A stretch of 64,000 nucleotides of DNA from contig JAFCMP010000549.1 in the NCBI GenBank assembly GCA_017506865.1, positions 1-64,000 of the forward strand, given 5' to 3'. This document shows positions 515 to 61,805 of the stretch, one piece after another (positions within the stretch are counted from its first letter, which is position 1; each line of letters begins with the position of its first letter). Source of the DNA: Tribonema minus (taxonomy: Eukaryota > Sar > Xanthophyceae > Tribonematales > Tribonemataceae). A program made the translations under genes and the position numbers. A model generated the notes under the pieces. The model saw only the letters and a list, made by a program, of their open reading frames with translations. It made no database searches and had not been told where the DNA came from.

Positions 515-3500
515 TCACCAAGGGCGCTCGGCGTTGCCCCCAGGCACGCAGCAGCGGCGGCACGTCACCGCCCCCAAGTCTTCGGGTCCGCACCAACGAA
601 AACCGCGAGCGCGGCGCGCTGCACCTCCGCCTTCCTTCGCAGCTGCGCCGCGCGCCGCGCCGCCGCCGCACGCGCTGCCGCTGCCGCGCCCGCCGCCGCC
701 GCCGCCGCGCCGCCGCGCGCCGCCGTCAACGCGGCGCTGCGCGCCGCGCACGCGGCGGCGCGCGCGCTTCGCGGCCGTCCTGGCCTCGCCCCTGAGCGCT
801 GCTGCGGCGACATTGACGGCGGTGTGCGCCGGCGCCGCGGCGGCGCGCGCTGCGGCGTCGATTCTGGCGTGCGCCTCGCGTGCGGCGGCGGGGATGATGG
901 CGGTGTCTGCGACTGCCTTTGCCATGTCCGCTGCCTGCGGGTGACGGCACGAAGTGCGGGGTTGGCGTCCGCCCATGGTGAGGTGCGTGCGAAGAGATGA
1001 AGTGAGTATATGCTCGCGCAGGCGTGATTGTGGTTGTGCCATGGCACGGCACTACGTGATTGCAGCTGCTGCGGCCTGCAGTGACCTGCACCCGCAAAGA
1101 CCAGACACCTGCATGGATGTCAGGCACCCTCTCTGCGCTTCAAGTTTACATCTGAACGTAGTCGTGAGCTGTGCGATTGCTGCCCGGCAGCGCAAGAGCA
1201 CGCCCCGCTTTGCCTCAACACGCATGCTGGGCATATGCCCATACAGCATCTTCAATGGAGATCAATATGGCGCGTGCTTACGGCTATGACGGCGGCATGC
1301 GCGCCGCTGCCTGCGCGCAGCACCGCGCAACCGAGGCAGATGATGATCAAAGGGGGACAAGCCTCGAAAACTTGTCCTCTTGCAGACAGTGCAGGGGAAG
1401 AAAGCAGCACGTGGCATCCCTTCTCGACTGGCACCGTCCAGCAAGTGCAGGAACGTAGCTGCAGCAGAGGACTAACGGGAAGGCTAGCATAGAAGCAGCA
1501 GAGCACTAGCTGGTGGGCTAGCATAGGAAGCCCACCCGCCCTGCCCTTTGTGTTTGCATTGATGATCACGCACTCACTTTCATCACTCCGCTGGCAGCGC
1601 CGTCCTTGGCGGCCTGAGCTTTCCGTGCAACGGCAGCAGCGTCCAGCGCACCGCCGCCGGTGTCGCGCGCGCAGTCAACGGCATCGTCTGCGCTGCCGCC
1701 GCCGCTGTCGCCGCTGCTGCTGCTGCCGCTGCCGCCGCAGCTGCTCTCCTCATCACCGCCGCCGCCACTGCCGCTGACCATGCCGCTGCCGCTGCCGCCG
1801 CCACCATAGAGGCCTGCGCTATCGCTGCCTCCGCTCATGCTCGCGCTGGCGCTAGCGCCGCCGCCGCCGTCGCCGTCATCACCCCTGACGCCCTGGCCGC
1901 CGACGCTCGCTGCGGCGCTGCTGCCGCCGCTCCGTGCTCTCCTGCGCAGCCGCGCGCCCATGAGCTTCAGCGCCGCCATCTGCCGCATGCCGCCGCCGCC
2001 GCCGCCGTCGCCGCCGTCGCCGCCGCCGCCGCGCCGCGCTCTGAGCTTCGCCTCGTTGGCGCGCAGCAGCGCCGCCAGGGGCTTGGTCTTGTCGGCCTTG
2101 GCTTTTGCGCGCGCGGCGGCGCGGTTCGCGGCGCGCACGCCCCTGGCTGCAGCTCTTTCGCCTGCGCTTAGGGTTAGGGTTAGGGTCAGGGTTAGGGTTA
2201 GGCGCGGTTCGCGGCGCGCACGCCCTTGGCCGCGGCCCTCTCGCCTGCGCAGCGCGTCGCAGCGCGTCTCAGCGACAGCGGCTCGTGGCGATGCAGCATG
2301 TCTCAGCGACAGTGGCACATTGTGGGCGCGCATGCAGGAGCACTGCGGCTTACTTCGAGTATGAGGCACAGGGTGCACTGGCACGTGGTGGCTCAGCGCG
2401 TCTCAGCGACAGCGGCACGTGGTGGGCGCGCGCATGTGCAGGAGCACTGCTGCTTACTTCAAAGTTGAGGCGCGGTGAAGCGTCGCAGCACGTCTCAGCG
2501 ACAATGGCATGCGGTGACGTCTCAGCGACAGCGGCACGTGGTGCGCGCACGTGCGGGAGCACTGCTGCTGCCTTCGAAGTATGTGGCACAGCGAGCACTA
2601 CCGCAGTCCGAGGCACAGTGAGGCGTGATAGAGGGCGGTCGCAGCAGCGCTGTGGCCTGAGACGCGCAGGCTGCTGATGCACAATGCCCGTTGCGGCGTC
2701 AACAGGGGGTGGGGATTGCGCGGAGCGCTGTGGTGGTGATGCACTCTGATGCAGCTGCAGCAGCGCTCGCGTTCATTGCACATGGCCACGCATCTCGCGG
2801 CACACGAAGCCGCCACTGCGGGCTGCCGCCGAAGCCGACTACTCATGCGCAGGTGACAGTAGCTGGGGCACACACATGCAGGGGCTTTCGGTCCCCCACA
2901 CTACCAGGAACGCGACTGCCCGTCCGCTCAACAACGTCAAGTTCAACTCTCTGACTCTACCCTTAGCTAGCCCTGCATCGCCACTCCCTCACCCTAACCC
3001 TAACTAGCCCCGCATCGCGCCGCCGGTGAGAAATACTTCGCGCACCTTCCCCCATGGTGTCGAACGCGCGCCTGACGGCCAGGGTCGCCTCCGCCACCGT
3101 CACCGAAGCGGTGATCGCGGCCGGGGCGCCCGCGTGCAGCAGCGCTCAGCCGACACTGTCACCTAAGCGGGGCGCAACGAGATAAAGACAGTAGCTAGGG
3201 CACACACACACCAATGCGTGCACTTTTGGCCCTGCACGCCACGTACGCGACTGCCCGCCCGCGCCACAACTCCCACTCTCTCTAACCCTAACCCTAACTA
3301 GCCGCACATCGCCATTCCCTAACCCTAGCCCTAGCTAGCCCCGCATCGCGCTGCCGCTGATCAGTCACGCCGCGCCGCGCGCACCTTCCCCCATGGCGTC
3401 GAACGCGCGCCCCTTAACAGCCAGGATCGCCTCCGTCACCGTCACCGAAGCGGTGATCGCGGCGGGGCGGCCGCGTGCAGCAGCGCTCAGTATCGCGTCC

Positions 3501-6500
3501 ACCGCTGCGCGCTCGTCCGGCTGCGCGCGCCGCGCCGCCCTCAGTGCCTACGAGTGCCGGCGGCGGCGGCGCGGTTTCAGTTGGCAGACAGGGGGGCGCG
3601 GCAGTAGGTTAGGGTTGAGATGGAGTTAGGGTTAAAGTTGGTGGGGGGGGGGGGGGGGCACTCCGGCGCGCTGGTCCGGGGTGCGCGCGCCGCGCCGCCT
3701 TCAGCGTGTGCGGGCGGCGGCGGCGCGCTTCGAGTTAGCGGAATAGGGGCGCGGCAGTGGGTTAGGGTTAAATTAGGGCTAGGGTTAGGGGGGGGGGGGG
3801 GGGGGGCCACCGCCGCGCGCTCGTCCGGCTGCGCGCGCCGCGCCGCCTTTAGCGCCTGCGTATGTGCCGGCGGCGGCGGCGTAGTTTGAGTTGGCTGACG
3901 GGGGGAGGGGGGGGGGTAGGGGGGCGGCGGACACTGCTTGCGGGCGCGATGCGAGGGCGGCTGTGAATGTGTCATGTATACAAATATGCGTGTATACATA
4001 CATACCTGCGCGTCAGTATGCAGCTGCGCTGTCGACGCATTCACATCAGCAGATGGGCACGCAGTGACGGCGGGGGCACAGCAGACTGCGCTGCGACGAA
4101 TCGTTTCCTGCGTTTTTATTGTGTACTTCGAAGTCGTGACCTTCTTGCTGTTTTGCTCAGCTTGGCTTTATGCTGTGTCACGTCCGAGCATAAAGCACAA
4201 TCGAGCACTGCTAGTTTGACCCCCCCCCCCCCCCCCCCCCCCGATATCACCAGTGCTCAGCATCGAGTAGTGCGCGCGGCCTGCATCCGACACAAGAGAC
4301 TCTGGGAGCGGTTGACACATGCATACCCCAAGCCAGGGTTAGGTTTAGGGTTAGAGTTAGGGTTAGGAACCTCACCACGGGCGGCCATCGCACCTGGACA
4401 CCGTTCCTTCCTTTGAGGCAGCAGGTCGAGTGTTCGCCGCCACAGTACGCACGTACGATGCTCGCACATGACACCCCGCATTGCCTTACACAAGGTCCAT
4501 CTCATGCACCCCGAACTCATGCACCCCGAATGCAGCCAACCACCCCCCAATCTTCGCACTCGTTGCACTCAGCAGTGGTTCTTCGTCATCTAGCGGGGCT
4601 TCTGGTGATGCACTTGCACCAGCACCAGGCCGCGGCTCATCACCTACCTACCCTGACATCAGCCGTGACTTCAAGCTCCCACATGAGAGGAACTCGTACG
4701 CATGATGGTGCACCTTTTTCGCTTTGTCGCCGCGCGCCGCTCTGCACGTGCCGGCCAGCACCTCGCCCGCCGCCGCCACGAACCGCGCCGCCGCACTCAT
4801 TACACCGCGTTCAGCTGGTACATGCGAGGAACTTTTTCACAGGCGAACGCACCTTTTTCGCGCCGCGCGCCGCCCTGCACGCGCCGGCCAGCGCCTCGCT
4901 GCCCGCCGCCGCAAATCGCACTGCCTCCAAATGCAGCCCACAACCACAATTCCCGCACTCATTACGCCACTTTCAGCTCAAACACGAGATGGACTCTTAC
5001 GCATGCAAGCGCACCTTTTTCGCGCTGCGCGCTGCCCTGCACGCGCCCGCCAGCGCCTCGACCGCTGCCGCCGCCGCAAACCGCACGGCCTCCACATGTG
5101 GCCCACGACCGCAACACTCGCACTCAATTCGCTGCCTTCAGCTGGTACATGAGAGGAACTTTTTCGCAGGCGAACGCACCTTTTTCGCGCCGCGTGCCGC
5201 CCTGCACGCGCCCGCCAGCGCCTCGCCCGCCGCCGCCGCCGCCGCGAAGCGCGCTGCCTGCTTCGCCTCCGCGGCGGCGAGCAGCACGCCGCCCTCCGTG
5301 CCGCGCTTGTCAGCGTCGCAGCGGCAGTGCTCAGTGATCTCCTCGCACGCGCCGACGGCTGCCGCCGCAGCGCCCGCACCCGCCGCAGCCGCTGCTGCCG
5401 CTGCTGCGCCGGCCGTCGAGTCGTCGCTGCTCTGCGCGCTGCTGCCGCCGCCGCCGCCGCTGCTGCCGTGCACCGGAGCTGCGGCCGCGTCCTCGGCAGC
5501 GTCGCGACTCAGTGCGCGGCCGCCGCTGTCGTGCGGCGGAGCGCTGTCGAACGGCTGACCGCTGCCGTGTGAGGGCGCCGCCGCATCGCTGCACAGCGCG
5601 CTGCTGCTGCCGCCGCCGCCTCCGCCGCCGCCGCCTCCGCCGCCGCCGCCGCCGCCGCTGCTGCCGACGCTGCTGCCGTTGCGCAGCCGAGCGCTGCCGT
5701 GCAATGGCGCACGTGCATCACCGCACGGCGCACAGCTGCTGCTGCTGCTACTGCCACTGCTGCTGCAGCTGGCACTGCCGCCGCTGCTGCTGTCAAGCAA
5801 CCGAACGCTGCCGTGCGGTGGCGCACGTGCGTCAGCGCTCAGCGCACGGCTGCTGCTGCTGCTGCTGCTGGCGCTGCCGCCACCGCTGCCGCTGTCCAGC
5901 GGCTGAGCGCTGCCGTGCGATAGCGCACGCGCGTCAGCGCTCGTCGGCACTGCCGGCAGGGCAGCGCCGAAGGCTTCATGCACGAGCTTGGCAGTCGTGT
6001 GCGTGACGTCCCTTTCCTTTGCTTCACGGGCCTTGGCATGCACCTGGACAGAAGGAGTGTGTGTGTAGGGAGGGGTGGGGGGGGGGGGCGGGGGGTGGGC
6101 GAAAGGGGCGGGGGGGCTGTTGGTGCTATGCTGATGTGAAGCTGTGCCGATGTGGAGCTGCTGTCGTCGAAGTGCTGTAACGGGTGGCAGTGTTGCACAG
6201 TGTCGCCATGACCGTGGCCACACGGTGCGCGGAGGGCGTGGCGCCCAAATTCATGATCAAACTTGATTCATGAAAGATTTATAACTGCACGCTACGCAAT
6301 CCATTGTGAACAGTCACCCGTGCTCATGGCTGCACTGTCATGTAAAGAGGGCATGCTGGGGTGAATGCCGAAACATTTTGTGTCTGGCCAGCGCGCTTTT
6401 GTTGTGTGCCCGCTGCAAGGCGCAGCATGCCGCGGCGCAGCAGCGCTCTGCATGGCGCCGACCCAGTCGTGTTCTGCAGCGCCGCCTGCCACCGCGACGC

Positions 6501-10322: not shown

Positions 10323-13300
10323 TTACACGGCGGGGGCCATCTCTACGCCATTGTTGGGTGACGCGCCGCTGCTGCCGGCGACGTTGTCGGTAATGTCGCG
10401 CGGGCGAGCGGGGAGCTGTTCCTCGGGGGCAAGGCGCGCCTTCGTGGCGCGCGTCTTGAGGGGCAGCCTGCGGAAGCCCGAGACGACATTATCGATTTCC
10501 TGCAGGGGCAGAAATAGCAATCATGGGGGGGCGATGGTGAGGTGTCGTGATAATGATTGACCAGCGCCAGAGGTTGCCTTGTGATCACAATTACAGTAGC
10601 CATGCGACAGCCTGCGAAGCCGAGACGACGTTGCCGATCTCCTGCAGAGGCGATGTGGGGGGTGATGGTGATAATGATGATGGAACTCAGGAGGCGCAAT
10701 GGTCATGATTGCGTATGGTGAAAGGCCATTTGAGGCAGGTTGAGCGGTGTTGCAGAGGGGTTGTCAGCGCGAGGCGTTGATGTATTCGGCGCATGTGGTG
10801 GGGAAGGCATGCTGCTGACAGGGTTTCAGAAGCAGGCGGGCGTCGCCAGGTGTGCTTAGCTTTAGTGATACTGGACATAGCATATCAGTGGGCTGCGTAT
10901 GTACTGCGAGGTACGGATGAGAGTGAGCTGCCCATGCAAACTTACATACTCGCTGCAAGAACAAACCGCTCGTGTTTTGAACAACGTTTAACACCCCCAG
11001 GACAGGTATTGTATGAAGCATCGCATTCTAGGAGCTGGCATCCGAATGAAAAGAAAACTGTCAGCTAGCAGCGGGTCAAAGGCAATGCATGCGCGCTTGG
11101 CATCAAAAGATGCTGCTGTCAAAACACATATCAACAACTCTCATGATATTTGGTACTGAAGTAGTTGCATCAAGTTGAATTGAGTGATTATCTCTGTCGC
11201 CATGAATGCATGCATGACGTACCTCAAGTGCCACCAGGCGTGTCTCCGGCACGTAGAGCATGGTGAAGACGAACATGATGATGCACCAGGCCGCAAAGAA
11301 CAGGAACGTCCCCCACAGGTCTAGTCTATCCTGGCGCAGCAGCTCGGGGGTGACCTTGCCGATGATGAAGTTCCACAGCCAGTTGGCGGAGGTGGTCAGG
11401 GTCATGCCTGCAGGCGGTGATTGACATGATAGCAAAATGAATGAGCTGATGTGACCTCAAGTGGGCTGGTGAATGACAGTTGAGCTACAAGGTAATCAGA
11501 GCCCTGCCTGCAAAGACGCATTAAAGCAAAGCAGCGCAGCACTACGACATAATCCCCTGCTGCGGCAGCAGCAGCCGCTGCTGCAATGCCTGGTGCCACT
11601 TCTTCTATACATCAAAGCTGACAGACCAAAGGTGCTTTGCACACTGACCCGACGGCGGCGCTGGCGCAGCACAGCACAGACCCTCGTTAAACCGCTACAC
11701 AGAGGTTGTGAAGTTCAACTTCAGCTCACTCTTGCCATGCAGGCAGTGCAAAGCATGTGCTGCAAAAGCACAAGTCCGCGCTGCAGCATAGACCGGCAAG
11801 CCCAGCAGGCGCTGTTTACTACATTGTTCGCCACAGCCTAGCTTACTCCCTCAACTGAGGCACAAATAATGACACCAAACAGCATAGTGCACGCAGCAGA
11901 AGCTTAAACTTCAATTCACCCTGGCCGCGCAATGTAAACGGGGAAGATCTCAGCGGGCACAAGCAGGGCAGCGCAGAAGGCACACCAGGGGTTATTGACT
12001 TCAATTTTAAACTCACCCTTGCCACGCAGGTCGAGGGGGAAGATCTCAGCGGGCACAATCCAGCCGACGGGTCCCCAGGAGAAGGCAAAGTTGACCACAT
12101 AGAGGGCGCAGAAGAAGACAATGGTCCAGGAAATGGCGGCGTCGTTCTTGTAGTCAGCGAGGTCGCTGCTGAGCAGGCAGACGGCCAGTAGAGTCAGGGT
12201 CATGCCGACCGCGCCGTAGGCCAGGAGAGTGCGGCGGCCGTACTTGTCCACGCACGCAATGGTGATGAACGTGCTGCAAGGAGTACATTTTGAGGCAGGG
12301 ACAGGGGGGAGGTGATGTTAGTGAGAGTCTTGTGGTGCAGGCATCAAGAGTATGCATGTGCTTCAGCAAAGATTACAACAGGTGGCCATTCAAAACGAGC
12401 ACGCTACATTACAAATAATGCCAAAGGGCTCTAGCAATGCCTCAGTGCTCCGGCAATCGGCATATACAGTAAACAAGAACCTCTGATGCACAATGCAAAA
12501 AAATTCTGCGACCGTGCAAACTGACAAAACTGTGAGCATGCTCCACGAAGAACTGCATCAGTGGCTGCATCACAGTTGCGTGCCTGTGTAAAGCACAGGG
12601 CACCATTGCAGAACACGCCGTGCTGCAATGACCACTACAGGGTCCAGGCTTCTAGATTGCAGCATGCGACTTTTCACCTGACGAAGTTGAAAAAAACATT
12701 AGAATGAGGTACAGAGTCCAGGCGTCAAGATAGCACATCAAGATAGCAGCATGCGTCAAAGGCTCACCTGACAAAGTTGACAAACATGAGGATGAGGTTG
12801 GCAATGAGGGCCAGGCTGGTGCTGAGGAAGTCGCTGAAGATGACGGGGGCAAAGTACCTGCAACAAGAGTGAGAGAAAGTTGGTCAGAGGTACGTAGTAC
12901 CTCACATACATAGACATACACTAGACACAGCCACAAATGCAACGATACATAGTATACTTATGGCCTACTCTTAACGCCTGATGCATCATGGCTGCACACA
13001 AGCACATAGCACTCATATAACTTCACGCTGTCAAGCAGCAGCGGCTGGCTGCCTACGGCATCACGGATTGCACAATGCGGGCCACATAAAACGTGTGTGC
13101 GGAACTACAGCGCACGATGCTGGCATCAGATTATGCATTGCAAGTCCACATTTTGGTGGGTAAGCATTGCAGGCAGCAAAAGACACAGAGCTGGTGACTA
13201 TGAGCATCACAGCATCCTGAAATGAAGCAGTGGCGAGGGTCACACAACAAGCTGCTCTTACCTAACCCTAAGACAGTTTAAGGTGCTATAGCAATCACAA

Positions 13301-20400: not shown

Positions 20401-23400
20401 GTCATGCAGTGCAGTTCCACACGCACACTTTGTAGTGTGCCCGCATTTCGCAACTCTCAATGCCGTAGCTGACCTCTGCTGTTTAACTGACCCACCGTTG
20501 TTTCGTCTGATTTGAAGTGATATGAGTGCTATGTGCATGTGTGCGGCCATCAGGCGTTGAGAGTAGGCCGCATTGTGCACGCATCGTCGCATTTGTGGCT
20601 GTGTGTATGTGTCTACTGTACGTACATGTACGTGCGCTACTACACAGCTCTGACCAACTGATTCACTCTCTTTTCTTTCTCACTCCTGTTGCAGGTACTT
20701 TGCCCCCGTCATCTTCAGCGACTTCCTCAGCACCAGCCTGGCCCTCATCGCCAACCTCATCCTCATGTTTGTCAACTTCGTCAGGTGAGAACTTCACTGA
20801 GAAGTCGCATGCTGCAATCTCAAAGCCTGGACTCTGTAGTGGGCGTTTCAGTACGGCATGTTCTGCAATGGCGCCCTGTGCTTTACACAGGCACACAACT
20901 GTGATGCAGTCACTGATGCAGTTCTTTGTGGAGCATCCTCACTGTTTTGTCAGTTTGCACGGTCGCAGAGTTTTTCTCATTGTGCACGGGTGCAGGTTCC
21001 TGTTTGCTGTGTATTGCCAATCGCCGGAGCACCACGTTTGGCGTTGTTTGTACAGTCTGCTCTTTTTGAATGGTCACCTGTTGACCTCGTTGAAGCACAT
21101 GCATATTCCTGATGCATGCGCCACAATATTCTCGCTAACATCCCCCCCCGTCCCTATATCATTCTCCCCCTTGCAGCACCTTCATCACCATCGCGTGCGT
21201 TGACAAGTACGGCCGCCGCACTCTCCTGGCCTACGGCGCGGTCGGCATGACCCTGACTCTACTGGCCGTCTGCCTGCTCAGCAGCGACCTCGCTGACTAC
21301 AAGAACGACGCCGCCATTTCCTGGACCATTGTCTTCTTCTGCGCTCTTTACGTGGTCAACTTTGCCTTCTCCTGGGGACCTGTCGGCTGGATCGTGCCCG
21401 CTGAGATCTTCCCTCTGGATCTGCGTGGCAAGGGTGAGTTGAAGTTGAAGCTTTTGCTGACATGCCCTGCACTCTTTGGTGTTGTTTGCTGCGCCCCAGT
21501 CACGGAGGAATGTAGGCTATGGCGAACAATGCAGTAAACAGCACCTGTCAGTGCTGGGCTTGCCGGTCTATGCTGCAGCACAGGCTGGTGCTTCCGCAGC
21601 ACATGTTTTGCACCATCTGCGTGGCAAGAGTGAGCTGAAGTTGAAGGTCACAACCCCTGTGTGGCGTTTTAACGAGGGTTGAAGTTGAAGTTCACAACCC
21701 CTGTTTGGCGTTTTAACGAGGGTTTGTGCTGTGCTGTGCCAGCGCCGCCGTCAGGTCAGTGTGCAAGCACCTCTGGTCTGTGAGCTTTGACGCATGGCAG
21801 TAGTGGCACCAGGCATCGCAGCAGCGCCGACAGCAGCAACAGCAGTAGCAGTAGCGGCAGCAGCAGTAGTGGTAGCAGCAGCAGCAGTAGCAGCAACGGC
21901 AGCAGTAGTAGCAGCAGCAGCAGCAGCAGCAGCAGTAGCGGCAGCAGCGGTAGCAGCAGCGGCAGCAGCAGTAGCAGCAGCGGCAGCAGCAGCAGCAGTA
22001 GCAGCAGCAGTAGCTGCAGGGCATGACTGTCTGGTGCTGCGCTGCGTTGCTTTCACGCGTCTGTGTAGGCAGGGTTCCGATTACCTTATAAACTGTCATC
22101 CACTAGCCTATTTGAGGTTGCATCAACTCATTCATCGCTGTCTTGTCAATCGCCGCCTGCAGGCATGACCCTGACCACCTCTGCCAACTGGCTGTGGAAC
22201 TTCATCATCGGCAAGGTCACCCCCGAGCTGCTGCGCCAGGATAGACTGGACCTTTGGGGAACGTTCCTGTTCTTTGCAGCCTGGTGCATCATCATGTTCG
22301 TCTTCACCATGCTCTACGTGCCGGAGACACGCCTGGTGGCACTTGAGGTACGTCCAGTGTTCACGCTTCGCATGCGCAGAACTTCATGTTAGATACTTGG
22401 CGGAATACATAAAAAGTACCATTGTAGTTCACGTGTGGAGCTTGCTTGCTGATGGAATCGCTGGAAGGGTCGTCGTATCAGCGGCTGTATGCCAAAAACA
22501 GCGGCTGTATGCCAAAAATCGATATCCCTGATAAGCGTAGAGTTCTACGATCTTTTGATTCGTTTCTCACTGTGTCAGCTGCTTGATGTTGCGGCAGCTC
22601 TGCCTGTACATTGCCAGCAAAAGCCTTGGTGGTATGTATGCCTGGCACTTCAGAGAGCCGGTGAGTCATGCTGACTGGCACCAATTGTGGCTTACAGCTC
22701 AATCTCAATGGGGTAAACAGCAAAGGAATTGGGACATCAATCAGGATCAGAATTTCAAAAGTGGTCAGCAGCACAACTGTGTATGGCACACCTGCCAACT
22801 CGCACCTGTCAAACACTTGTCATTTTACTTGAGATATCTCAAATGTTCCCATGTTGCATTTGCCACTTGGCCGTTTCATTCTCATCTTGGCGCGACGTCC
22901 CTGAGAGTGTAACCTTACGAGTTGCGCGAAGCTTCCAGCTGCTGCGTGCTACGCTCACGAGTGCTGCAGTTCCAGTATCACACCACCTGGCAGCTGTACA
23001 TGTAGCAGCTAACTGTGGTTTGTAGTCGCCGCATATCACAGCCATGAAGCCAAGCACACGTGGCAGCATCCTGCAGCACCATTCCCACCACATGTTGCGC
23101 GTACATAATCGTCATGACACCTCACCATCACCCCCCAAATAGTGATGCGTGTGCCCCTGCAGGAGATTCGGGCTTCCGTAGACTCGCACTCAAGACGCGC
23201 GCCACCAAGGCACACGCAATGACCATCGTGACAGGTCTAGAAATTGCCTTCTGAGTACATCATCATCGTCATGACACCTCACCATCACCCCCCGCATCTT
23301 GCTACTTGCCTTGTCCCCTTGCAGGAGATTGACAACGTCGTCTCGGGCTTCCGCAGGCTGACGCTGACAGATCACAAGCTGCACTTCAGACTCTTGCCAT

Positions 23401-23767
23401 ACGCAATCATGACACATCACCATCACCCTCCATCATTGCTGCGTGTCCCCCATGCAGGAGATCGACAATGTTGTATCGGGCTGCCGCAGGCTGCCGCTCA
23501 CCAAACCACAAGCTGCACTTCAGACTCTTGCCATATGCAATCATGTCACACCTCACCATCACTCCCCACATCACTGCTGCATGTCCCCCCTCGCAGGAAA
23601 TCGACAACGTCGTCTCGGGCTTCCGCAGGCTGCCGCTCAAGACGCGTGCCACCAAGGCGCGCCTCGCCCCCGAGGACCAGCTCCCCGCACGCCCGCGTGA
23701 CATCACCGACAAGCTCGGCGACGCCTCCGAGTCTGCGCGCGGCGTCGAGATGCCGCCCGCCGTTTAA
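17473..23767 (+). CDS. sugar/H+ symporter (major facilitator), copy B
   Basis: Exons: 17473-17603, 17895-17914, 18438-18814, 19110-19271, 19939-20162, 20695-20784, 21177-21433, 22163-22347 and 23597-23767. They total 1617 nt, 538 aa plus stop. Exon lengths 1-8 (131, 20, 377, 162, 224, 90, 257, 185) are identical in all four transporter genes. Sugar-porter motifs are intact (GLIFGYDIGGSGG, PESPRWLYK, QQLTGINAIMYFAP, PAEIFPLDLRGKG, VPETR). Several introns still align with those of copy A (the introns after exons 5 and 7), so A and B are an inverted duplicate pair. The product should be a plasma-membrane monosaccharide importer. The tail ends GVEMPPAV. The last intron carries three decoy copies of the last-exon start. 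Confidence 0.94.
18118..18146. repeat. TG microsatellite in intron 2 of transporter B
   Basis: An imperfect GT dinucleotide run. Confidence 0.7.
20270..20340 (+). repeat. short tandem duplication in intron 5 of transporter B
   Basis: A GATGCTCATCATCACCAG unit occurs twice within about 35 bp. Copy A has one related unit in the equivalent intron. Confidence 0.7.
21605..21725 (+). repeat. copy of exon 7 end plus duplicated intron start in transporter B
   Basis: CTGCGTGGCAAGAGTGAGCT at about 21619 repeats the exon 7 end and donor (21421-21440), with the donor G mutated. It is followed by two tandem units of GTTGAAGTTCACAACCCCTG type, about 40 bp apart. Confidence 0.85.
21820..22016 (+). repeat. 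AGC/AGT trinucleotide tract in intron 7 of transporter B
   Basis: About 200 bp of imperfect (GCAGYA)n. It is preceded by TGGCACCAGGCATCGCAGCA, which has a counterpart beside a much shorter CAG tract in copy A (11555-11600). The tract therefore expanded after A and B separated. Confidence 0.85.
23150..23596 (+). repeat. three decoy copies of last-exon start in transporter B
   Basis: CAG|GAGATT(C)GAC-type junctions lie at 23163, 23325 and 23457, before the real one at 23597 (spacing 162, 132, 140 bp). Each unit carries the exon coding for EIDNVVSGFRRL in diverged form plus a shared TCATGACACCTCACCATCAC intron segment. Confidence 0.9.
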
Positions 23768-25310: not shown

Positions 25311-25359
25311 TAACCCTAACCCTAACCCTAACCCTAACCCTAACCCTAAACCTAACCCT
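25311..25359. repeat. interstitial telomere-type tract (CCCTAA)n
   Basis: About eight consecutive CCCTAA units, one with an A insertion (CCTAAACC). This is the longest pure tract in the window. Both flanks continue as unique sequence, so it is interstitial rather than a chromosome end. Shorter tracts of the same unit occur near 2170, 2990, 3280, 3320, 3605, 3765, 4340, 48500, 51480, 53730 and 55505. Confidence 0.9.
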
Positions 25360-26477: not shown

Positions 26478-26525
26478 ATTTAAGGCAAAGGAACCCCCGC
26501 CCGGCGCTCGTTAGCGCCGCCAGGT
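26478..26525 (-). promoter_or_regulatory. conserved double hairpin in 3' flank of transporter C
   Basis: On the minus strand, GGCGCT-AACG-AGCGCC (6-bp stem, 4-nt loop) is followed by CGGGGGTT...AACCCCCG (8-bp stem). The same pair of hairpins occurs after copy D. Confidence 0.5.
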
Positions 26526-26863
26526 GTGGCAGTTGACGCCGCCTGTCCTGCGGACGTGTCCAACGCGGCACGCTACCGCACGGCGGGTAGGTCGGTATGC
26601 AGCTGGGAGCTGCTATGCAACTTCCATTGCATCTCACAGAGGACGAAACCGGGAAACATCATACTCTTGTCTGGGGGCATGGAAAGCGGGGCGCGCGTGT
26701 GCGAGCGGCGGCGAAATGAATTCCACCACCCAATGCACACGGCCCCGCTACGTGCATGTGCATGTAGCATGTCTGACTACTTCAATTTAGCTACTTCAAC
26801 TCTCAAAAGTACCTGCGCGTTGAAACCGCAAAGAAACCACAAAAGCTAGGTGGTGTATGCAGC

Positions 26864-30986: not shown

Positions 30987-31002
30987 GGTGCCTGCTTACC
31001 CA

Positions 31003-39742: not shown

Positions 39743-40621
39743 TTGTACTGACAGCACGTTGGACGAGTTTGCGTCTGCGGCTGGCTTCTGTTATGCATGC
39801 GTGCTGTTTTGTTGACGTGCCTTCAGTGTGTGTCTGCATGTCTGGAATGGTAGACGACAGTTGCTTTTGTGCCAGAAAGCTGTTGAGGCTTAAGGGCTGT
39901 CTATTTTTGGTGTACAACAGTCAATTTGCACTTCACGTCGCTTGAAGCCATTGCATCATCTGTAGTCAACGTCAAACCATATGTATGCGTGTGTGCTGTA
40001 GTTGCTGATACGCCGGGCGTTCAAGCGGCGCGGCACATCGCATGCCCTGACTCTGAAATCCATGGCTTCAACTCGGCGATTCGTTGGCAGCAGAAGCCAG
40101 CGAGCTAGGTGCAATCAACGAGGGGCCGGCGTCTCTCTGGCGTCAAATCCGCTGCTGGATGTAAACCAAAGGCGCTTGCTGTACAGTCCTCGTGTTGAAG
40201 GTGAAGATATGCCAGATTACCCGGAACGCTGGGAACAACAGCACCTGATTGCAAGGCGCTGGCTGACAAGCAGTGTCACGAGCTCGACAACGTGATGGCG
40301 CACACGGCTATTGCCATCCTGGCGTTTGTTGCGATGCCCGGCTGGACTTGGGACCTGCTCGAGCCTCGAAATGGATCCGCGGCGCATTCCGAGAACTAAG
40401 CGCCTTTCGAGGCAAATCCCGGACGTCTTGTTGAAGTGCCGGCAATTAGGCCTGGTCATAGCCTGCCATGGCGGCCGCTCCGGTGGACATACGGGCTTTG
40501 CCTGCGAGGAGTTGATGCGCTCCTCTGTCCAGCTTCCTGTTTCCTCAGCTTGGTTCACTCTCTCACACACCGTGCCTTCAGGCCTAAAACCTCGGATACT
40601 CTCCTTGGACAAGCAGGCACC

Positions 40622-46335: not shown

Positions 46336-49300
46336 ATGGACGACGGGCCCTCGCATAGGACTGGAAAGGGAAAAGGGAAGGGCAAGGGAAAGGGCCCTGG
46401 AGGAGGTGGTGGTGGTGGTGGCGGCCCCAAAAGTAAAGGTGAACACAGAAAGCCATCGAATCTGCTTAGCGTGCTGTAGTGAGCTTGCGGCCGTACATGG
46501 TGTCGCAGCCCACAAGCAACAGTGGGTCGATGAATAATCCATTCACAAAAGGGATTGTGGTAGCGTATATGTTCAGCGTGTCTTGATATGTCGGCAGTAC
46601 ACTTTTTTGCCAGCTTTCTTCAGTACTGTTGTTCGCAAAAAAAACACTCACCTTAGTTGGGGTATTGTGCTTAGCTGAGGTGCTGATGTAGCACTTTATG
46701 AACCTTGTGAGCCAATGACGGAGACTGCACAGCAACTCTGGTGCATAAAAAATGACAGCACGACCGGGGCTTTGCGTTGGGAGTGGGCAATCACAGCAGA
46801 ATTGATCAACCCATCCTTGCGAACCCGAACAAGACATGAGTACTTGGCTGGTGGATATGGTGCGTGTGCTGCTTTCATCAGCACAACAGCTGAATTATCA
46901 ATCTTGCACTCGCGGGCCTTCGCGTCTTTTTGAGGTGCGCGTCGTTGCATGCCATGCCAACAGTAGGAGCCAGTACTGCGCACGCCATGACGCAGCATGC
47001 CAGCACTGACAGCTCATGCGAAAGCCAAGCAGGGCATTGCAAACTCTGGCGGCCAAAATGCAAAGGCAACAAGCACATACTTCCCCAGATGCGGAGGCCT
47101 TCAACACGCACAGAGAACCGTAGAACAGCTAAACAACCTGGAGCCTTCCATGTCGCCGCATGGATTGGTTCAAAACCCGCGTCATCACCTTCTACACTAC
47201 GCGCATTTACGAGCGCTGTCACTAGCTGCTGAACCTCTGTGTTGGGCTGCCGGCTGGAGCTGGCCTACAACACGTGAGACCTTTCCAATACTGAACACCC
47301 ATGCCTCGAACGCTAAAAGCTTGCACACAGAAGTCTTTTTGACTGGTGGGTACGGTGGTACTGTTTGACTCGTGGCCAATTGCTGCAGCAGCGGCGACCA
47401 CAATTATTGGTGGAAGGCACTTGCGGCTAACCATCCCTTGTCACCTAGAGCTCTACCATCTTTTGATTCGTATTCATACAAACTGGGTGTACGTCCCCGC
47501 CCATCGCTACCCTAGCTACAGGTTGAAGGGCCACTGCTTGGCAGTGGGGCAGCGTAGAGCCCCCTTCCCTGTTCTGGCAGGCAGTCTTGCGCGATCTGGC
47601 CTCTCGTCTGCGTGGACAAGTCATGCGCACTTGACCTGCACATCAACCTCAACTGTGAACTTTTGCCAAGTAGGCAAGAGGACTCTCACCATGACCGACG
47701 CGCGGCTCGAGAGACGTGACAGGGGGAGTATGTGCAACACAGGTGTCCTCGAGAGCTTAGAGCCGGCCGCCGTATATATATATACGGTATGGACGCAAGG
47801 GGGGGGGGGGTATACAGGTATGCAACAGGGGGGGGGGGGGGGGTATGCAACGGGGGGAGGCGCTCGATAGTATGAATGCAACGGGGGGGGGGGGGGGGAT
47901 ACAGGTATGCAAAGGGGGGGGCGCTCAATACCCGCAGTGACGGCCACCATCGCCGGCAGCCTCATCTCAAATGTGCACACCTGTGCTGAGCGCTGCCCCC
48001 TACTTAAACACAGGCAAGAGGAGGCGTCGCCTCAATGTGAACCTGGTGCCTGAGCGCAAAGCCAGCCACCATCCCCGCAGACTTGTTACAAAATTGCACA
48101 CCAGTGCTGAGCGCTGCCCCCTACTTCAATACAGGCAAGAGGAGCGTTCCCTCACTGTGCACTTGTGCCCGAGCGCAGAGCAGGCCACCACTCCAGCAGA
48201 CCCCATCTCCATGTGCGCACCAGTGCTCCCAACTTCAACACCAGTCTGAGCGCTGCCCCCAACTTCAACACAGGCAAGAGGAGCGTCGCCACGCGCAGTG
48301 GCGGCCACCATGCCGGCTACTTTTCCGGGGGGCGCGCGGCGGAGACGGCAGATGAGCAGGAGGGTGCAGCCGCGGCCGCCGCTAAGGGCCTCGGCGTGCG
48401 GCTGCGCATGTGGGACTTTGAGCAGTGCGACCCCAAGCGCTGCACCGGGCGCAGGCTGTGCCGGCTAGGTGGGTTGCCGCGTTCAAGTGCATTAGGTTTA
48501 GCGTTAGGGTTAGGGTCAGGGGGTGGCGACTGTGCGTGCGCGCGCGCTTGGGTGGCTGCTGATTGTTGATTGTTGAGCGTTGCTGAGTGCTGGATTGTGA
48601 GCAGTGCGGTCCCAAGCGCTGCAGCCTAGCCCTACAAGCTGGCGAAGACGTGCGCACGGGTTGAGCGTTGCTGCGATGCGGACGATGATAGGACTGTGCC
48701 GCCTCACCGCAAACAAGTAGTGTGAGTGATCGTAACTGGCATGTTACCCGCCTGCCATGACGCCTCGGTGCCCCCTTCCATTGGCGTTCGCCAATCAATT
48801 AATTGAAAATAGGTATTGAAAAACAGGTGAAATACTCCCACTTCTTTTTTGATAATGCTCAGGCTTTATCAAGGAGATGGACATTGGTGCCCCCTTTCAT
48901 TCTCATTCATTAACCGATCATTGAAGTTCACATTCACAGGTTGTTTTCATGGAAAAATGTGAAAGACTCCCCCCCACTTGTTGTCTTGATGGTGCTCAGG
49001 GTTCATCAAGGAGATGGATCTGGGAGCCCCCTTTCATTTTTGTTCATTCACCAATCATTCAATTCACAAATTGATGGGAAAAAACAGATGAATGACTCGC
49101 ACATATTGTTACGATGATGCTCAGGCTTCATTAAGGAGATGGACCTCGGAGCCCCCTTCCAAGGGCTTGTGCTTAGCCCAAACGGCGAGAAAACGGTTTC
49201 GCCAGAGGACCGTGAGATCGTGGACACCCTGGGCATATCGGTCATCGACTGCTCCTGGGCGCGACTGGACGACGTGAGTGCGTGTATCCAACTTCAAATT

Positions 49301-52220
49301 TGAAGTAGAAGATGGCAACTATAGTGAGGTGTTGTGCAGTGCCTGCATGGTGTGAGTGCGCGCGTGCTTGCAGCGCTCCTGTGCAGTCGACAGCGGCTCC
49401 GCATGTATGCAAATTCAAATTTGAAGTAGCAGATGTGGCAGAGGTTTGAGTGAGGTGTTGCAGTGCTGCACAGTGTGAGTGTGCACATGCTGGACGCAAC
49501 TTCAAAATTGAATTAGCAGGGGTGGCAGATTGTTGGTGAGGTGCTGCAATGCCGCATGGTGTGATTTTGAGCGCTGCTGTGCTCGTCGGCAGCGGCTCCG
49601 CGTCGACATGCATGCAACTTCAAATTGGCGCATGCAAAAAAGGGTGACACTTGTTGCTGAGGTTGCAGTGCTGCACGGTGTGATTGTGCGCATGCTGGCA
49701 GCGCTCCTGTGCCGTCAGCAGCAGAAGTGAAGTAGCAATGGTGGCACATCATTGGTGAGGTGTTGCGGTGCTGCAAGGTGTGAGCGTGCACACGCTGGCA
49801 GCGCTGCTGTGCCTTCGGCAGCAGCTCCACGTCGACATGCCAACTTCAATCGGAGTACTGTCTGCAGATGCGGCATCTACTTTTTGAGGGGTTGCCATGC
49901 TGCATATTTTGATTTCTGCGCATGCTAGCAGCACTTTTGTGCCTACGGCAGCGGCCCGGCCGCGTCGAAAACATGCATCTTCAATGGAAACATGCAGAGG
50001 CGATCTACTTTTTACTCATAGTATTGCAGTGCTGCATGGCGTGATTGTGCGTGTGCTCGCAGTGCGCATGTGCCTACGGCAGCGGCTCCGCGTCGCTACT
50101 GTGGAGCGCTGTCACGTCGAAGGCGAGCCGCACTGTCCTCTGGTTTCACGTCCCCTTCCACTGGAAGCAGCGCGGCCCACCGCCGCCTGCTGCGCTTCAA
50201 GTCCGAGTCATCACTCAGAGTCTCATTCAATGACTCCGCTGACTACTGCTGCCCGCTGACCCGCCGCAGGTCCCCTCTTCCACCAGAATAGGCGGGGTCA
50301 TCACCGGCTGCTGCGCTTTGAGTCCGAATCACGACTCAAAGTCTCATTCAATGACTCAGCTGATCGCTGCTGCCCGCCTGCCCGCCCACCCACCCCAGGT
50401 CCCCTTTCACCAGACGCGGCACAGCGCTTTGAGTCTCAGTCATGACTCAGAGTCTGACTCAATGACTCAGCCGATCGCTGCTGCCCGCCCACCCCTCCTC
50501 AGGCCCCCTGCCACCACATGCAGCGGGGTCATCACCGGCTGCTCTTGAGTCGGAATCACGAGTCAGGCTCTCATTTGATGACTCAGCTGATCGCTGCCCG
50601 CTCACCCGCCGCAGTCCCCTTCCACCACATGTAGTGGGGTCATCACCGGCTGCTCCTGAGTCGGAATCACAAGTCAGGCTCTCATTTAATGACTCAGCTG
50701 ATCGCTGCTGCCCGCTCACCCGCCGCAGTCCCCTTCCACCAGATGCGGCGGGGGCATCACCGGCTGCCGCGCTTTGAGTCTGTACCAGTTAATTCGGGTC
50801 TCTTCGAAAACGATTGCCACCTTCTTTGTTTATCAGGCAAATTCCAAATCCTGAAATCTGGTTCAATCACGTTTGTTTCACCTCAGGTCCCCTTCCACCA
50901 GATGCGGCGGGGCCACCACCGGCTGCTGCCATTTCTCGTCGCCGCTAACCCCGTCAACTACGGCAAGCCCTTCAAGCTGACGTGCGCAGAAGCGCTGGCA
51001 GCAACGCTCGTCATTGTCGGTCTGCGAGAGCAGGGTGCGCTCGTGATGGACCAGTTTGGCTGGGGTCCTGAATTTCTAAAGGTGAGGGGCACTGTTTCAT
51101 GGATAAACTTCATGTCTGTATTGAAGTACAAATTGGACGCGCGGGCAGCAACGCTCGCCATTGTCGGTCTGCGAGAGCAGGGCGGGCTTGTAAAGACCAG
51201 TTCGGGTGGGGTCCTGAGTTCTTTGAGGTGTGCAGCAGTATGGTGTGGAGCGGGTGCCGCATGATGCATTGCTTGACCTACTGAGTATATGCACTAGGAG
51301 GTCAAGTTGTATCCTGTGTCGGTGTCGCAGTGCTTGGCATCCTGACATTTTTTTTTTTTTTTACCGTCATGTCGAAGCACCTTTTCACGACGAGATCGTC
51401 ATTTGTATGACGAGATCTTCATTTCAATGTTTGCGTGAGGGTCCAGCTTTTCAGTCAAGCAGCCGGGTGCTGGAGCGCTAACCCTAACTCTAACCCTATG
51501 AAGCAGTGGCGGCCCACTCAATCAAGGGACATCATCCCGTGCGCACTGCTGCCGTGTTAATGCAGCTCACAAGCTCCGCCGTGCCCCAATTGAGGAGTGC
51601 TCACATCATGCTGGCAAAGTTAACCATTTGTGTTTGAGTTGGCTGTGCAGTTTGCGTAGCTGCCAAGGTGAAATCAGAAAGGCTGCCCAGAGTGCGCTTC
51701 AGCTTCGGGCCTCGATCCCCCATATTGGTGAGCATTGAGTCGCACCGGTCGGCTGCTGTTGCCACCCGCTGCCTGCCGACCCCCATGCTCTGCCATCAAA
51801 ACAGTGGAACACATCTGACGCATACGTCAGCGGTGGCGAGACACAAACCTGGACCGGGGGCACCGCGTGACATGAGCACTGTCACCGGCTGCCCAGTTCC
51901 TGACCATTGCGTGTTGCCGACCCCCATGCCGACAGCAGCAGCGCCACCACTTCCAGTCGACATCATGCGTGAGGTAAAGCTGCAGACGCTCTACACCTCT
52001 CGCGTAGCTACTCTCCTTACACCTCATGTTCCACTGCACACTTTTTGTCTGGTATGCGGTGCACACTATGCCCCCCGCCCCCCCCCCTTTACACGCACAC
52101 ACACACACACACATACACACATACACACACACCCCCTCAGCAGATAAATGCGGACGTTCTGGAGCGCTACGCAGCCTGCGGCAGTGGCGCCGAAGTCATC
52201 ACGGCTCAGGCGGCATACTA

Positions 52221-52252
<32 letters not shown>

Positions 52253-52684: not shown

Positions 52685-52886
52685 CACAAATAGTGATGTT
52701 CTGTAGTTGTTGGCAAGCATTCATGGCGTGTGTGGAAGACCGCTTGCTCCCGTCAATATGCCATGCAGTCAACATGCACGCACGCTTTGATGGAATCATC
52801 TGCACAGAAAATGCACGCAGCTACCGTTTTGAACTTGATTTCAGCGTGGCTGCTACGTAGCGCTACTGTACGACTGCTTCGGCGAG

Positions 52887-52892
52887 AATAAA
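52887..52892 (+). promoter_or_regulatory. AATAAA, possible polyadenylation signal of TSR3
   Basis: AATAAA lies 203 bp after the TSR3 stop and only 40 bp before the next gene's ATG. Whether this lineage uses AATAAA is unknown. Confidence 0.25.
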
Positions 52893-52931
52893 TGCTTGAA
52901 GTTTAAGTTTGGTCGAATCTTTTGAAGTTTG

Positions 52932-55377
52932 ATGACTGACCGAGCCGGCATGGACGCTGAAGGAGCAAGAGTGTCCGTGCTGGTGACGGGAGGCAGTGGA
53001 TACCTGGGACAGCACACCCTACGACACTTCGGCAGCTTGCCATGGGTTGCCTCTCTGTCGTACACGTATCGAACAGCGCCTCTGGCAGCAAATGCACAAG
53101 TCGTCGGCCATCAAGTCGACTTTAGTACGGCCACAGTTGACGATATCAGAGTGGTCCTTCGAGCAGCGCGGCCTGATGTAGTGATACACACAGCAGCGTT
53201 GTCAGGGCTCGGTCAATGCGAGAAGGATCCGGAGGCTGCGCTAAGGGTGAACTCGGTGAGTGAATCACGCATTGCAACAGCTTCCTCCGTATCAATTTTC
53301 TTTTTCATTCATGGCTGCTTGCGTGGTAGCTTGCTGTAAGTAATCAGATGGTCACATGTTGTCAGCGGCACCGCCCGACATTCTTGAAGGCACCAGGTGC
53401 GGGTACCATCGAGTTGAGACCCTTCCGAGTAGCATCACAGCTTGCTGTGCACAGAAAGCGCTTTGCAACGCTTCATGCTGGAAAACGAGAATAACTTGTG
53501 TGAACTGCCTGTCACGTAGCAATTGTCTTGTGTCAATTACCCATGAAGCGCCACCCTGTTCTGTGCACCCCATTCATAGTGCAAGCCTGCACCAGCCTGT
53601 CCCCGTCTGCGGCGCACTGCTTGCAGGCAGCAAGTCTGCGTGCATAATCATGATGTCTGGGAGTTGACCTCTTGAACCTGGCGCTTCCAGGTGGTCGTTG
53701 GCTGCAGAAGTCCGCTGTGTGCCTTGCGCAAGCCTAACCCTAGCCATAACCCTCCTTCCTCTGCCTCACCCAGCCAGGCGCGTTGTTAGAGGCGCTGGCG
53801 CTGGAGGCGCCTGATGCACTGGTCGTGTACATCTCAACAGATCAGGTAAGTAGGTATCGTTGCTCACGGAACCTATTACACCCAGAACAGTGGTACGTAT
53901 CTGCCATAGCCACAAAAGCCGACACCGGGTGCTGATTCGGCCCCGGCATGAGCAGGCGATGAAACTTCTCAGAACACATTCCCAATGCTGCTGGCTTCTC
54001 TGCATTCAGCTTGACAACCTGCACTGGCATGGAGTAATCAGCGAGTTGCTGGTTGCGCCATCGATGGCCACTTGTGTTTTCCGCGCTGCCTTGCGGAGCC
54101 TTACTGTCACGTGCAGAAACAGGATGTAAGGCTTCGCCCACTGTTAAGTTGCTGACGCAATGCGCCTCCCTAACAGGTCAGTCTGCTCAATGAGCCCACG
54201 CGCAAGATTCAGCGCCTGAGCCCATCATCAGTGCTTGCGCACGCGCAGGCACCCGAAATGCTGGCAACAAGAGAGACCGAAGGGGGAGCAAGCAGAGCCA
54301 TCACCTGAAGTTGGTGACTTGAAGTTCATTGGCGCAGGCCAACAACACGAGATATGCACCTGCAGCAACGCCCAGGCTGGCAGCCATTAATAGATATATC
54401 TCCCTTTGTTTTGTGTGTTGCGCCCAGGTCTACGGCCAGCACGCGCGCGAACTCACCGCCCTTCGCCAACGCGCACGCGTGCGCACCAATTCAGATTGAG
54501 TGCTTGCATGTCGTTGCATTGCGCCCAGGTGTACGGCCAGCACGCGCGCGCGAATTCGCCGCCCTTCACCGAGGCGCACGCGCGCGCGCCGCTCAACGCC
54601 TACGGCGCCACCAAGCTCGCGTTTGAGACGGCGCTCGAGGAGCACGCGACCGCGTGCGCGCCGCGCTTCCGCTACGTGACGCTCCGCTCCAGCAACATCA
54701 TCGGCGCGCGTGCGCCGTACACGCGCGCCGGCAAGTTCCTGCAGTGGCTGCAGGGCGCGCTGTGCGCCGCGTCCGCCGCCGCCGCAGCTGCCGATGGCGA
54801 CGGCGGCTGCGGAGGCGGCAGCGGCGGAGACGGCGGCAGCGGCGAAGGCGGAGGCGGCGGTGGTGGCAGCGGCGGCGGCAGCGGCGGCGGCAGTGGCGGC
54901 GGCGGCAGCAGCGACAGCGGCAGTGGCGGCAGCGGCAGCGGCGGTGGCAGCAGCGGCGGTGGCGGCGGCGGCGGCAGCGGCGGCGCCAACGAGCTGGCGC
55001 TCTTCAGCGACGAGCTGCGCAACTTTATCGACGTGGACGACATCGCGCGCGTGCTCGCGACGCTCGCCGCCGCCGCCGCCGCGCCGCCGCCGCCGCCGCT
55101 GCCGCTGAACCGCGCGTACAACATGGGCGGCGCGGCCGCGCTCAGCCGCGCGCAGCTCGGCGCGCTGTGCGCGGCAGCGCTCGGCGCGGCGGCGGCGCGC
55201 GCTCGCATCGTTGCCGCGCCGCGCGGCGCCGCCATGCCGCACCCCTCGCCGCTCGACCTGAGCATGGACAGCGGAGCGCTGTGGGGCGCGCTGAAGGCGG
55301 CGCCGGCGGCGGCGGCGGACGCGGTGCGGCGCGGCGTCGCGGCGCCGCTGCCGCAGGAGGGGGGCGCGCGGCCGTAG
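52932..55377 (+). CDS. RmlD/MAT2B-like NAD(P)-binding protein (extended SDR)
   Basis: Exons: 52932-53255, 53774-53845 and 54529-55377. They total 1245 nt, 414 aa plus stop. The N-terminus carries a Rossmann signature (VLVTGGSGYLGQHTLRHF), then RPDVVIHTAAL, VVYISTDQ, the catalytic-type NAYGATK (YxxxK), RYVTLRSSNIIGAR, ELRNFIDVDDIARVL and RAYNMGG. This order fits dTDP-4-dehydrorhamnose reductase-like extended short-chain dehydrogenases, which include the regulatory beta subunit of methionine adenosyltransferase; I cannot choose between them. A Gly/Ser-rich stretch of roughly 70 residues (54780-54990) is inserted before ELRNFIDVDD and looks like an expanded GGC repeat. It follows TSR3 on the same strand with 247 bp between. 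Confidence 0.85.
54425..54500 (+). repeat. decoy copy of exon 3 start of the RmlD-like gene
   Basis: GCGCCCAG|GTCTACGGCCAGCACGCG at 54428 duplicates the used junction at 54529, 101 bp upstream. The copied coding extends about 70 nt. Confidence 0.93.
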
Positions 55378-59946: not shown

Positions 59947-61805
59947 CTAGCATGTGTTGACCTTGCGTCGTGCGGAGCGCACCAAGTCGCGCTCCTTCTG
60001 CGTGAGCCCCCAAACCGGCTCCGACTGAATCTCCAGACGGTTCAGGAGCTGCACGCATGGCGGGAGGAGCACACGTTGAGTGTCACCAGGCCTGTGTGAA
60101 AAAGACCAGCTGCTTTTGTGCATGCGCTGATGTGGAAAACTGATGGTTGTGCTCGGTGCATGCTTGTTGTGCCAGCAGAGCGCAGTCGTGCAGGTGGAGC
60201 AGACCTTGACCGTGAAGTCGGACCACAGACACGTAGTGCGGCTGCACCTACTGTACACAAACAAATGCATAAAGAAATGCAGATGATGACAACCCCAACT
60301 CTTGTGGTCACGACGGTTGCTTTCTCTCGAAAGTAAGAAAATCAAGCCAGGAACAGTATGTGACGTGAGCAAATGCCTGCCGCCCCTGCGCGTGCCTCTG
60401 AGTCACAGCTGCACTTGTGACATGGCTGCCAAGCCCTGTTGACTCGAATCAAATGACAACTCGCAATCTACAGCAACATCTTTGCAACAACACAGACTGC
60501 AGAGCACTGACGCGTGGCGCACCTCCATCATGGCGGGCGAAGACAGCGTCTTCTTCAGGTTGCCCTTGATCTCTATCGTCCGCGCGTTGAGCGAGTTGGC
60601 CTTGGCGAGCTCCGACTCCATGCCCATCACGTCCTCCATGACCGCCTTCAGCCGCTCAATGTCCTCCTGGCTCGCCACCGCCTCCGGGCGGTGGTGCAGG
60701 CTGCGGCGCGCACATGAAAACGCGCAGAGAAACGGTGAGAACTTTGCTGACAAGGGTGTGGCTATTTGTGGAAGTGGTGATTGCCAGCGAGTTAGCGAAT
60801 GCCCTCCTGACTCGCCACCGCCTCCGAAAGTGGTGCAGGCTGCGGCACGCATGAAAACGCGTGCACAGATGGTGAGAACTTCACTGAATATTGATGGGTT
60901 GAGTGAAGTGATGGTTGTCAACGAGTTGGCGGTGCAAGATGCTGTCGCTGCTGCTGCGATTTTCTCTGCACCTCATTGACAGGATTCGCTGGCACAGTCC
61001 GCAATGATTTTCAATGCATGAGAGCAACTGCGAAACTGGCAATATCCTTTGAAGTACACGAAGTTCTAGAGCGAGTTAATAGTGCAACCACAGCTACCTA
61101 GGTGTACAGACATTGCACAATGCGTTGTTGGAAGCCTGTAAGGCAAGGCCAACATTTGAAGTGACAATCAAGCTGAACCGGCCGGAAATTGGCTGTTGTG
61201 AGCACATGGCGCTAACAAATGTTAACAAATGTGGGCACATCCATGGGAGTCCCAGAGGTGCTTCTTAATCACGTCCGTTGCTATGGCCCACATTAACAGC
61301 AGGTTCGAGGACTTCGAGACTGAGCACAGGCCAAAGATTTTCTGTATACACAGAACCAAGACAGGCATGTCGGTTTGAGTCATGGATGTAGCAATGTCCA
61401 CTTCGCATGAAACTGTGGTGCAGTCAAGTTGCTGTTTTCTCCAGCTCTGCGACTCACTTGGGGGCGGCCTTGGAGCGAGCGCCTGACGACACGAGCAAGT
61501 GACAAACGACACAACCAGCATCAGGGTAAGACTTCCAGCTTGCTTTGCTTTTGAGGTGGTGCACCACCGCCACTGCGAGTGACGTGCATATGAGAATCAA
61601 GCAAAAGCACATGCAGAGCAATCAGCTGCACGCCAGAGAGTGGCGAGGACGTACCTCCGCTGCCGTAGAAACCACCCTGAGTTCCCTCCTGGCCGCCGGA
61701 ATATGTTACATTGTCGCCAGAGTACGAGCTCAGGGTGCGCCACTGGCAAGTTGCACTTCTCCTGAAAGCTGTGCTAGCAGCATAGGCGGCCCTGCGAGCG
61801 AGCAT
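59947..61805 (-). CDS. unrecognised 151-aa protein, coiled-coil-like middle, possible mitochondrial presequence
   Basis: Exons: 61805-61655, 61482-61458 (25 nt), 60700-60523 and 60048-59947. They total 456 nt, 151 aa plus stop; phases 1, 2 and 0 fit exactly. The N-terminus (MLARRAAYAASTAFRRSA) is Arg/Ala/Ser-rich without acids, like a mitochondrial presequence. Next comes YSGGQEGTQGGFYGSGGARS (Gly-rich). A charged helical region follows (SQEDIERLKAVMEDVMGMES, then ELAKANSLNARTIEIKGNLK). The C-terminal part is LLNRLEIQSEPVWGLTQKER and RDLVRSARRKVNTC. I do not recognise the family; the Gly-rich-then-helical layout recalls small mitochondrial regulators such as the ATPase inhibitor, but no diagnostic motif supports that. 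Confidence 0.75.
60805..60850 (-). repeat. decoy copy of exon 3 start of the 151-aa protein gene
   Basis: GCCGCAG|CCTGCACCAC at 60839 duplicates the used acceptor at 60700, 139 bp upstream on the minus strand. The copied coding covers GGCGGTGGCGAGTCAGGAGG. Confidence 0.9.

Follow-up and report, generated by a model that had tools for sequence, protein, structure and literature searches.

The stretch of DNA analysed here (the window) comprises bases 1–64000 of contig JAFCMP010000549.1, part of the 158-Mb, 554-contig genome of the yellow-green alga Tribonema minus (Xanthophyceae). A 91-residue exon within it shows 100% identity to an annotated T. minus protein. The window carries a methylthioribose-kinase-like gene (mtnK), four closely related sugar-transporter-like genes (A–D) that lie near each other on both strands between 10323 and 44737 and have common intron positions, genes for TSR3, an epimerase/RmlD-like protein and a thioredoxin-domain protein, and an Ala-rich predicted gene. 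Introns of several of these genes hold near-copies of the adjoining exon edge with its splice site, and the analysis confirmed that this observation is real and extends beyond the window.

For this analysis, 330,811 bp (~0.33 Mb) were supplied to a gene finder, made up of the window, ten random 20-kb blocks and eleven mitochondrial-carrier loci. The blocks were the first 10 of 100 drawn, with positions restricted to 20 contigs and kept within known lengths, and the carrier loci were picked solely by carrier-domain matches, with L001–L008 excluded for overlap with the window. Whole-frame Pfam scans and lists of open reading frames yielded few usable gene models, so a spliced aligner, used with annotated T. 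minus proteins, and a self-trained gene finder were written; the resulting models are partly predictions. The gene finder recovered the spliced-aligner structures of mtnK and the transporters and predicted further genes. The annotated proteins used were P0001 (the window mtnK gene), P0002 (the transporter family) and P0015 (gene B015, from a random block). Introns shorter than 100 or longer than 2,500 bp, flanking exons shorter than 40 bp and genes below 30 bits were dropped ahead of the main counts.

The 40-bp exon edge was sought as a near-copy in the adjoining intron, with one threshold throughout, and introns permuted among loci (200 permutations) and mid-exon segments served as controls. 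Of 115 introns, 33 had a near-copy of the donor edge and 20 of the acceptor edge. Permuted introns gave mean matches of 0.86 (donor) and 0.78 (acceptor) of 115, with a maximum of 4 in 200 permutations, and mid-exon segments matched in 3/76 and 0/78 cases. An earlier note on this DNA, made from the letters, had claimed that such copies are widespread and had proposed the permuted-intron control, run here on the sample; on this point it was correct. Between one and six copies were detected per exon edge. At least one was present in 44/115 introns and in 16/22 genes, so the description of most genes as affected stands for the sample, but it does not carry over to most introns. By source, copies were present in 24/57 introns of the random blocks, 8/14 of the carrier loci and 12/44 of the window; the random-block matches were uneven, with two loci, B015 and B027, supplying 14/19 donor and 7/12 acceptor matches. 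Protein homology placed the exons of six genes, and there the copies fall within introns (at p ≤ 0.002, donors 10/40 and acceptors 6/40; mid-exon segments 1/29 and 0/33). Introns with copies had a median length of 892.5 bp versus 498 bp for those without (p = 1.8e-6), a comparison in which longer introns also offer more chance of detection. In one gene-finder set, the nearest copy lay within 160 bp in 27/49 copy-bearing junctions, with a median of 124. The claim that copies decay with distance did not hold as a general trend (Spearman −0.07, p = 0.52); in 18 arrays, the nearest copy was the better match in 12 and the farthest in 5, with one tie.

Transporters A and B, whose exons are 93.6% identical, allowed individual insertions to be seen. 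Their first two exons were taken from the gene finder and the remainder from the P0002 spliced alignment. Intron 7 is longer in A by 96–97 bp at the donor, and the extra sequence repeats the exon end, donor and intron start, with the copy at 11920 (96 bp; 11910–12016, minus strand) in an insertion absent from B. In intron 6 of A, an exon end and donor copy at 12679 (88 bp; 12652–12767, minus strand) lies in a 78-bp insertion, also absent from B. The last intron of A contains an acceptor and exon-start copy at 10641 (142 bp; 10500–10651, minus strand), and that of B has tandem copies of the same type at 23324 and 23457 (23104–23596, plus strand) before the junction at 23596, with a 139-bp unit at the acceptor that is extra relative to A. 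Each of these three insertions (two at donors, of 96 and 78 bp, and one of 139 bp at an acceptor) spans a splice junction and matches its own flank at p = 0.005, the lowest value attainable with 200 shuffles, in agreement with the intron growth by duplication across splice junctions that had been proposed. When all insertions and deletions of at least 30 bp between A and B and between C and D were considered, 7/15 matched adjacent sequence: 6/7 in introns aligned at an identity of at least 0.74, 1/4 in intron 8 of A and B (0.60) and 0/4 in poorly aligned introns. Transporter D, which the earlier note had included, gave no exon-edge copy at the threshold (best weak match p = 0.008) and showed just intronic repeats. 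As a separate observation, an intron of transporter B contains a CAG-rich array (21818–22019) with look-alikes on many other contigs.

Assemblers often make errors in tandem repeats, and the copies might on that account be false. Their divergence from each other by 3–26%, their variation between sister genes and their presence in every kind of contig sampled make an assembly artefact extremely improbable.

The mtnK gene (33666–40399, plus strand), whose product has structure relatives in 2PYW and 2OLC, was aligned with P0001 as seven core exons and a further annotated exon, itself a copy. Its introns hold copies of both kinds, all on the plus strand. A 27-bp exon-end copy lies at 34584, and an array of acceptor and exon-start copies (35350–35695; first exon-type bases 35429, 35507 and 35613) precedes the true exon start at 35696. 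The exon part of these array copies is short, and since the junction reaches just p = 0.028 in the exon-edge test, it was kept out of the counts. The following copy, of the exon 3 end and donor (36199–36258), has its junction equivalent at 36231, 255 bp from the junction at 35976, and shares its intron with a 138-bp unit in which the acceptor and the opening 94 bp of the next exon, at 36963, are copied (36789–36918), with the exon-start equivalent at 36825. One intron thus holds copies from both of its borders. Two further exon end and donor copies (37170–37330; junction equivalents 37213 and 37316) lie after the junction at 37107.

Most of the remaining genes named in the earlier note also carry the copies attributed to them. 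TSR3, identified by Pfam PF04034, has three exon-start copies (48743, 48862 and 48999; 48743–49124, plus strand) before a predicted junction at 49124 and six more (50149, 50271, 50398, 50502, 50613 and 50727; 50146–50886, plus strand) before a predicted junction at 50886. An acceptor and exon-start copy at 54427 (54417–54528, plus strand) precedes the predicted junction at 54528 of the epimerase/RmlD-like exon. In the thioredoxin-domain gene, which had been called the 151-aa gene, a unit of ~140 bp with acceptor and exon start is repeated upstream of the exon near 60700 (60658–60931, minus strand); it stayed outside the counts because the neighbouring exon is too short. For the Ala-rich gene, a prediction whose model homology does not support, copies of exon ends lie at 4719 (junction 4852) and 3662 (junction 3810; 3640–4852, minus strand). 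Elsewhere in the window, short interior runs of a TTAGGG-type hexamer occur at 2168–2202, 4335–4367 and 25310–25359, and an Rfam scan of the window returned no family at the cut-offs.

Gene B015 matches the annotated protein P0015; relatives are found in Ectocarpus, Phaeothamnion, Vaucheria and Chrysoparadoxa. Of the six B015 introns, the first five bear exon-edge copies, in two cases with an edge identical at 40/40 positions (score 80). When P0015 was aligned, several gene-finder exons proved to be copies within introns, and these copies are skipped by P0015. A clean spliced alignment was obtained from P0015 alone; those of the distant relatives were noisy, with small pieces falling on copies. 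A limit on how far units reach into exons (Kolmogorov–Smirnov p = 4e-7) was rejected as a candidate feature because the gene finder takes long exon copies as exons, a source of bias; homology-placed genes hold copies with 86–124 exon bp.

To place the junctions in context, direct local copies of 40-mers were compared with inverted and reversed controls. Direct copies were found for 44/115 donor exon edges (inverted 5, reversed 8), 29/114 acceptor exon edges (8 and 8), 204/999 intron interiors (17 and 15) and 63/343 exon interiors (42 and 40). Outside the genes, the counts were 12/125 upstream (0 and 4), 14/140 downstream (4 and 5) and 64/1942 in intergenic sequence (27 and 6). In introns, direct repeats thus lie far above both controls, as expected from the strong tendency to short local tandem duplication that had been put forward. 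From intron interiors (~20%) through the 500-bp gene flanks (~10%) to intergenic sequence (3.3%) the copies form a gradient, a hint that transcription or open chromatin may be connected with them. Intronic minisatellites resemble the T. minus introns in their arrays of diverged tandem units; the T. minus units differ in that they cross the splice junction and copy coding sequence together with splice sites.

These data bear on whether splice sites themselves promote duplication, for example through the nascent transcript or spliceosome-linked damage. Such targeting would fit the higher rate of local copies at exon edges, both donor and acceptor, than in intron interiors, the higher rate in introns than in intergenic sequence and the fact that three of the seven tandem insertions between sister genes cross a junction. 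However, an exon template can be recognised for longer than an intron template, so that exon-edge counts are inflated, and random placement of the seven insertions already expects about two across junctions (rough hand arithmetic), so targeting is not needed for the three observed. Donors and acceptors also behave alike within 160 bp of the junction (17 and 18 of 119), and for this reason an apparent excess of donors over acceptors (31 versus 12 of 110 with copies at p ≤ 0.005) was dropped. As intron interiors too are rich in local copies, targeting of junctions is not needed, and we regard it as quite unlikely.

The explanation that we consider likely is that introns grow by random short tandem duplications that span splice junctions, while the outermost sites are still spliced. 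The T. minus genome often produces tandem duplications that are short and local (about 30 to 200 bp), most of all in genes. A duplicated unit that chanced to span a splice junction would copy the exon edge along with its donor or acceptor. If splicing stayed at the outermost sites (the 5′-most donor and 3′-most acceptor), the mRNA would be unchanged and the extra copy would turn into intron. The outcome would be a longer intron holding an exon-edge copy and a decoy site, and repeated events would build arrays. Under this explanation, placement would be random relative to junctions and most copies would be neutral; that the used sites lie on the outside of the arrays is suggested by protein homology.

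The state of the copied splice sites was then considered. Among copies that align at least 20 bp into the intron, GT was intact in 18/19 and AG in 15/17, versus 13.6 and 12.1 expected from the mean identity squared, a figure that ignores constraint on the original site. The copied sites thus persist and have not been purged, and decoy splice sites are present within introns as the earlier note had held. Where copies extend to the junction, a score above the lower quartile of true sites was reached by 60% of 47 donors and 56% of 32 acceptors. For each copied site the highest score among seven offsets was taken, an advantage to the copies; random intron positions treated identically came far lower. 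Across six intron positions of the donor consensus, 117/128 matched (about 91%, hand sum), close to the exon part, so special retention of the consensus is not demonstrated; a value of 104/106 in favour of such retention was rejected, as it rested on five chosen positions and a rounded exon figure. Near donors, the motif GAAGTTGAA was counted: across 119 introns it turned up 7 times within the initial 100 bp, and the final 100 bp held none.

Intact and high-scoring decoy sites would also be expected if the copies were functional, as alternative exons or splice sites maintained by selection, and P0001 does use one copy. P0015, however, uses none, frame-breaking spacing is frequent (27, 27 and 25 of 79 in the classes of d mod 3), the donor consensus matches no better than near the level of the exon part, and the scoring over seven offsets leans towards the copies. 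Selection for function therefore appears very unlikely. A different proposal, which we hold to be doubtful although less so than targeting or selection, is that copied sites persist through use: an outermost-site rule, or nested or recursive steps, would operate over competent arrays that may still supply new exons and introns. The rejection of special consensus retention made this proposal somewhat less likely.

Several observations weigh against growth by random, junction-spanning duplication with outermost splicing. Copies are lacking in 71/115 introns and are concentrated in certain genes, and which copies are spliced was deduced from proteins. Several copies match almost solely in the exon part (intron match 0–10 bp), which counts against a simple one-step duplication because this predicts otherwise for the youngest copies. 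Two of the flank matches between sister genes are partial (34/78 bp and 89/174 bp). That exon-edge copies are commoner than interior intronic ones could mean targeting and not random placement, although a higher rate at exon edges can follow because exon conservation keeps the template recognisable. Finally, the public protein P0001 counts bases 36825–36911, a copy, as an exon, giving a 29-amino acid tandem repeat. Both repeats align to one and the same stretch of 2PYW, a solved relative with a single copy, and the copied exon may accordingly be mispredicted or else represent exon birth. Likewise, DRC4 has one copy in the known structure versus two in tandem in the gene-finder model of the T. 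minus genome.

The earlier note had also allowed for intron birth. In the Rogers-type model, tandem duplication of an exonic AGGT segment creates the intron, and whole introns are duplicated exon pieces. Tandem duplication is indeed frequent in T. minus, and the mtnK annotation, if followed, would mean that a new intron lies within an exon start that was duplicated. Against this, the two signatures of the model (intron start matching downstream exon start, and intron end matching upstream exon end) occurred together in 0/119 introns and singly in 3 and 1 of 119, with about 0.6 expected, and the T. minus copies include intron sequence from the flank as well as the splice site that belongs to their own junction. 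Birth by this route is thus highly improbable here, and the interpretation offered in the note is partly supported overall, with growth rather than birth favoured.

That introns can originate by tandem duplication is well documented (PMC3443670, PMC2891723). The Rogers-type model described there resembles T. minus in that splice sites come from short, local tandem duplication within genes, but it builds introns from exon sequence, and its signatures are those missing from the 119 introns. In a potato RdRp gene (Ma et al. 2016, PMC4974935), a tandem duplication crossed an intron–exon boundary and copied the intron end, acceptor and exon start. Junction-crossing tandem copies of this type were found in T. 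minus. The potato case concerns one gene in which a new intron was made, whereas in T. minus many genes are involved, donors are copied too, arrays are formed and existing introns grow. With respect to new exons or introns arising from copies, P0001 includes a copied exon and P0015 none; the mtnK annotation, if real, would be of the potato RdRp type. Introners, as presented in the main text of a survey (PMC9860276) in which a term search gave no mention of Tribonema, likewise affect many introns of a single genome, but they are mobile families common to different genes, whereas the T. minus copies resemble the junction to which they belong, a match that permuted introns lack. Sharing of the introner type between unrelated genes was not seen when exon edges were compared with permuted introns (0.86 and 0.78 of 115), a comparison in which intron-to-intron families were not searched for as such. 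In the literature searched, which included few subscription journals, no account of this pattern was found, either for Tribonema or across a whole genome. The mechanism itself has been known from individual cases; what T. minus adds is a scale for which no earlier report was found.

Intron lengthening and the origin of exons and introns are usually inferred from isolated cases. In T. minus, 44/115 introns with copies of graded age, together with single-event differences between sister genes, make the rate, size, position and splicing outcome of such duplications measurable, and near-identical sites within one intron amount to natural competition tests of splice-site choice. Gene prediction in T. 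minus is at risk: copies of exons were called as exons by the gene finder, and one such copy is part of the public mtnK model. If it is true that copies are used, this would be a genome observed while its introns grow and exons arise through tandem duplication, a view to which the mtnK annotation points.

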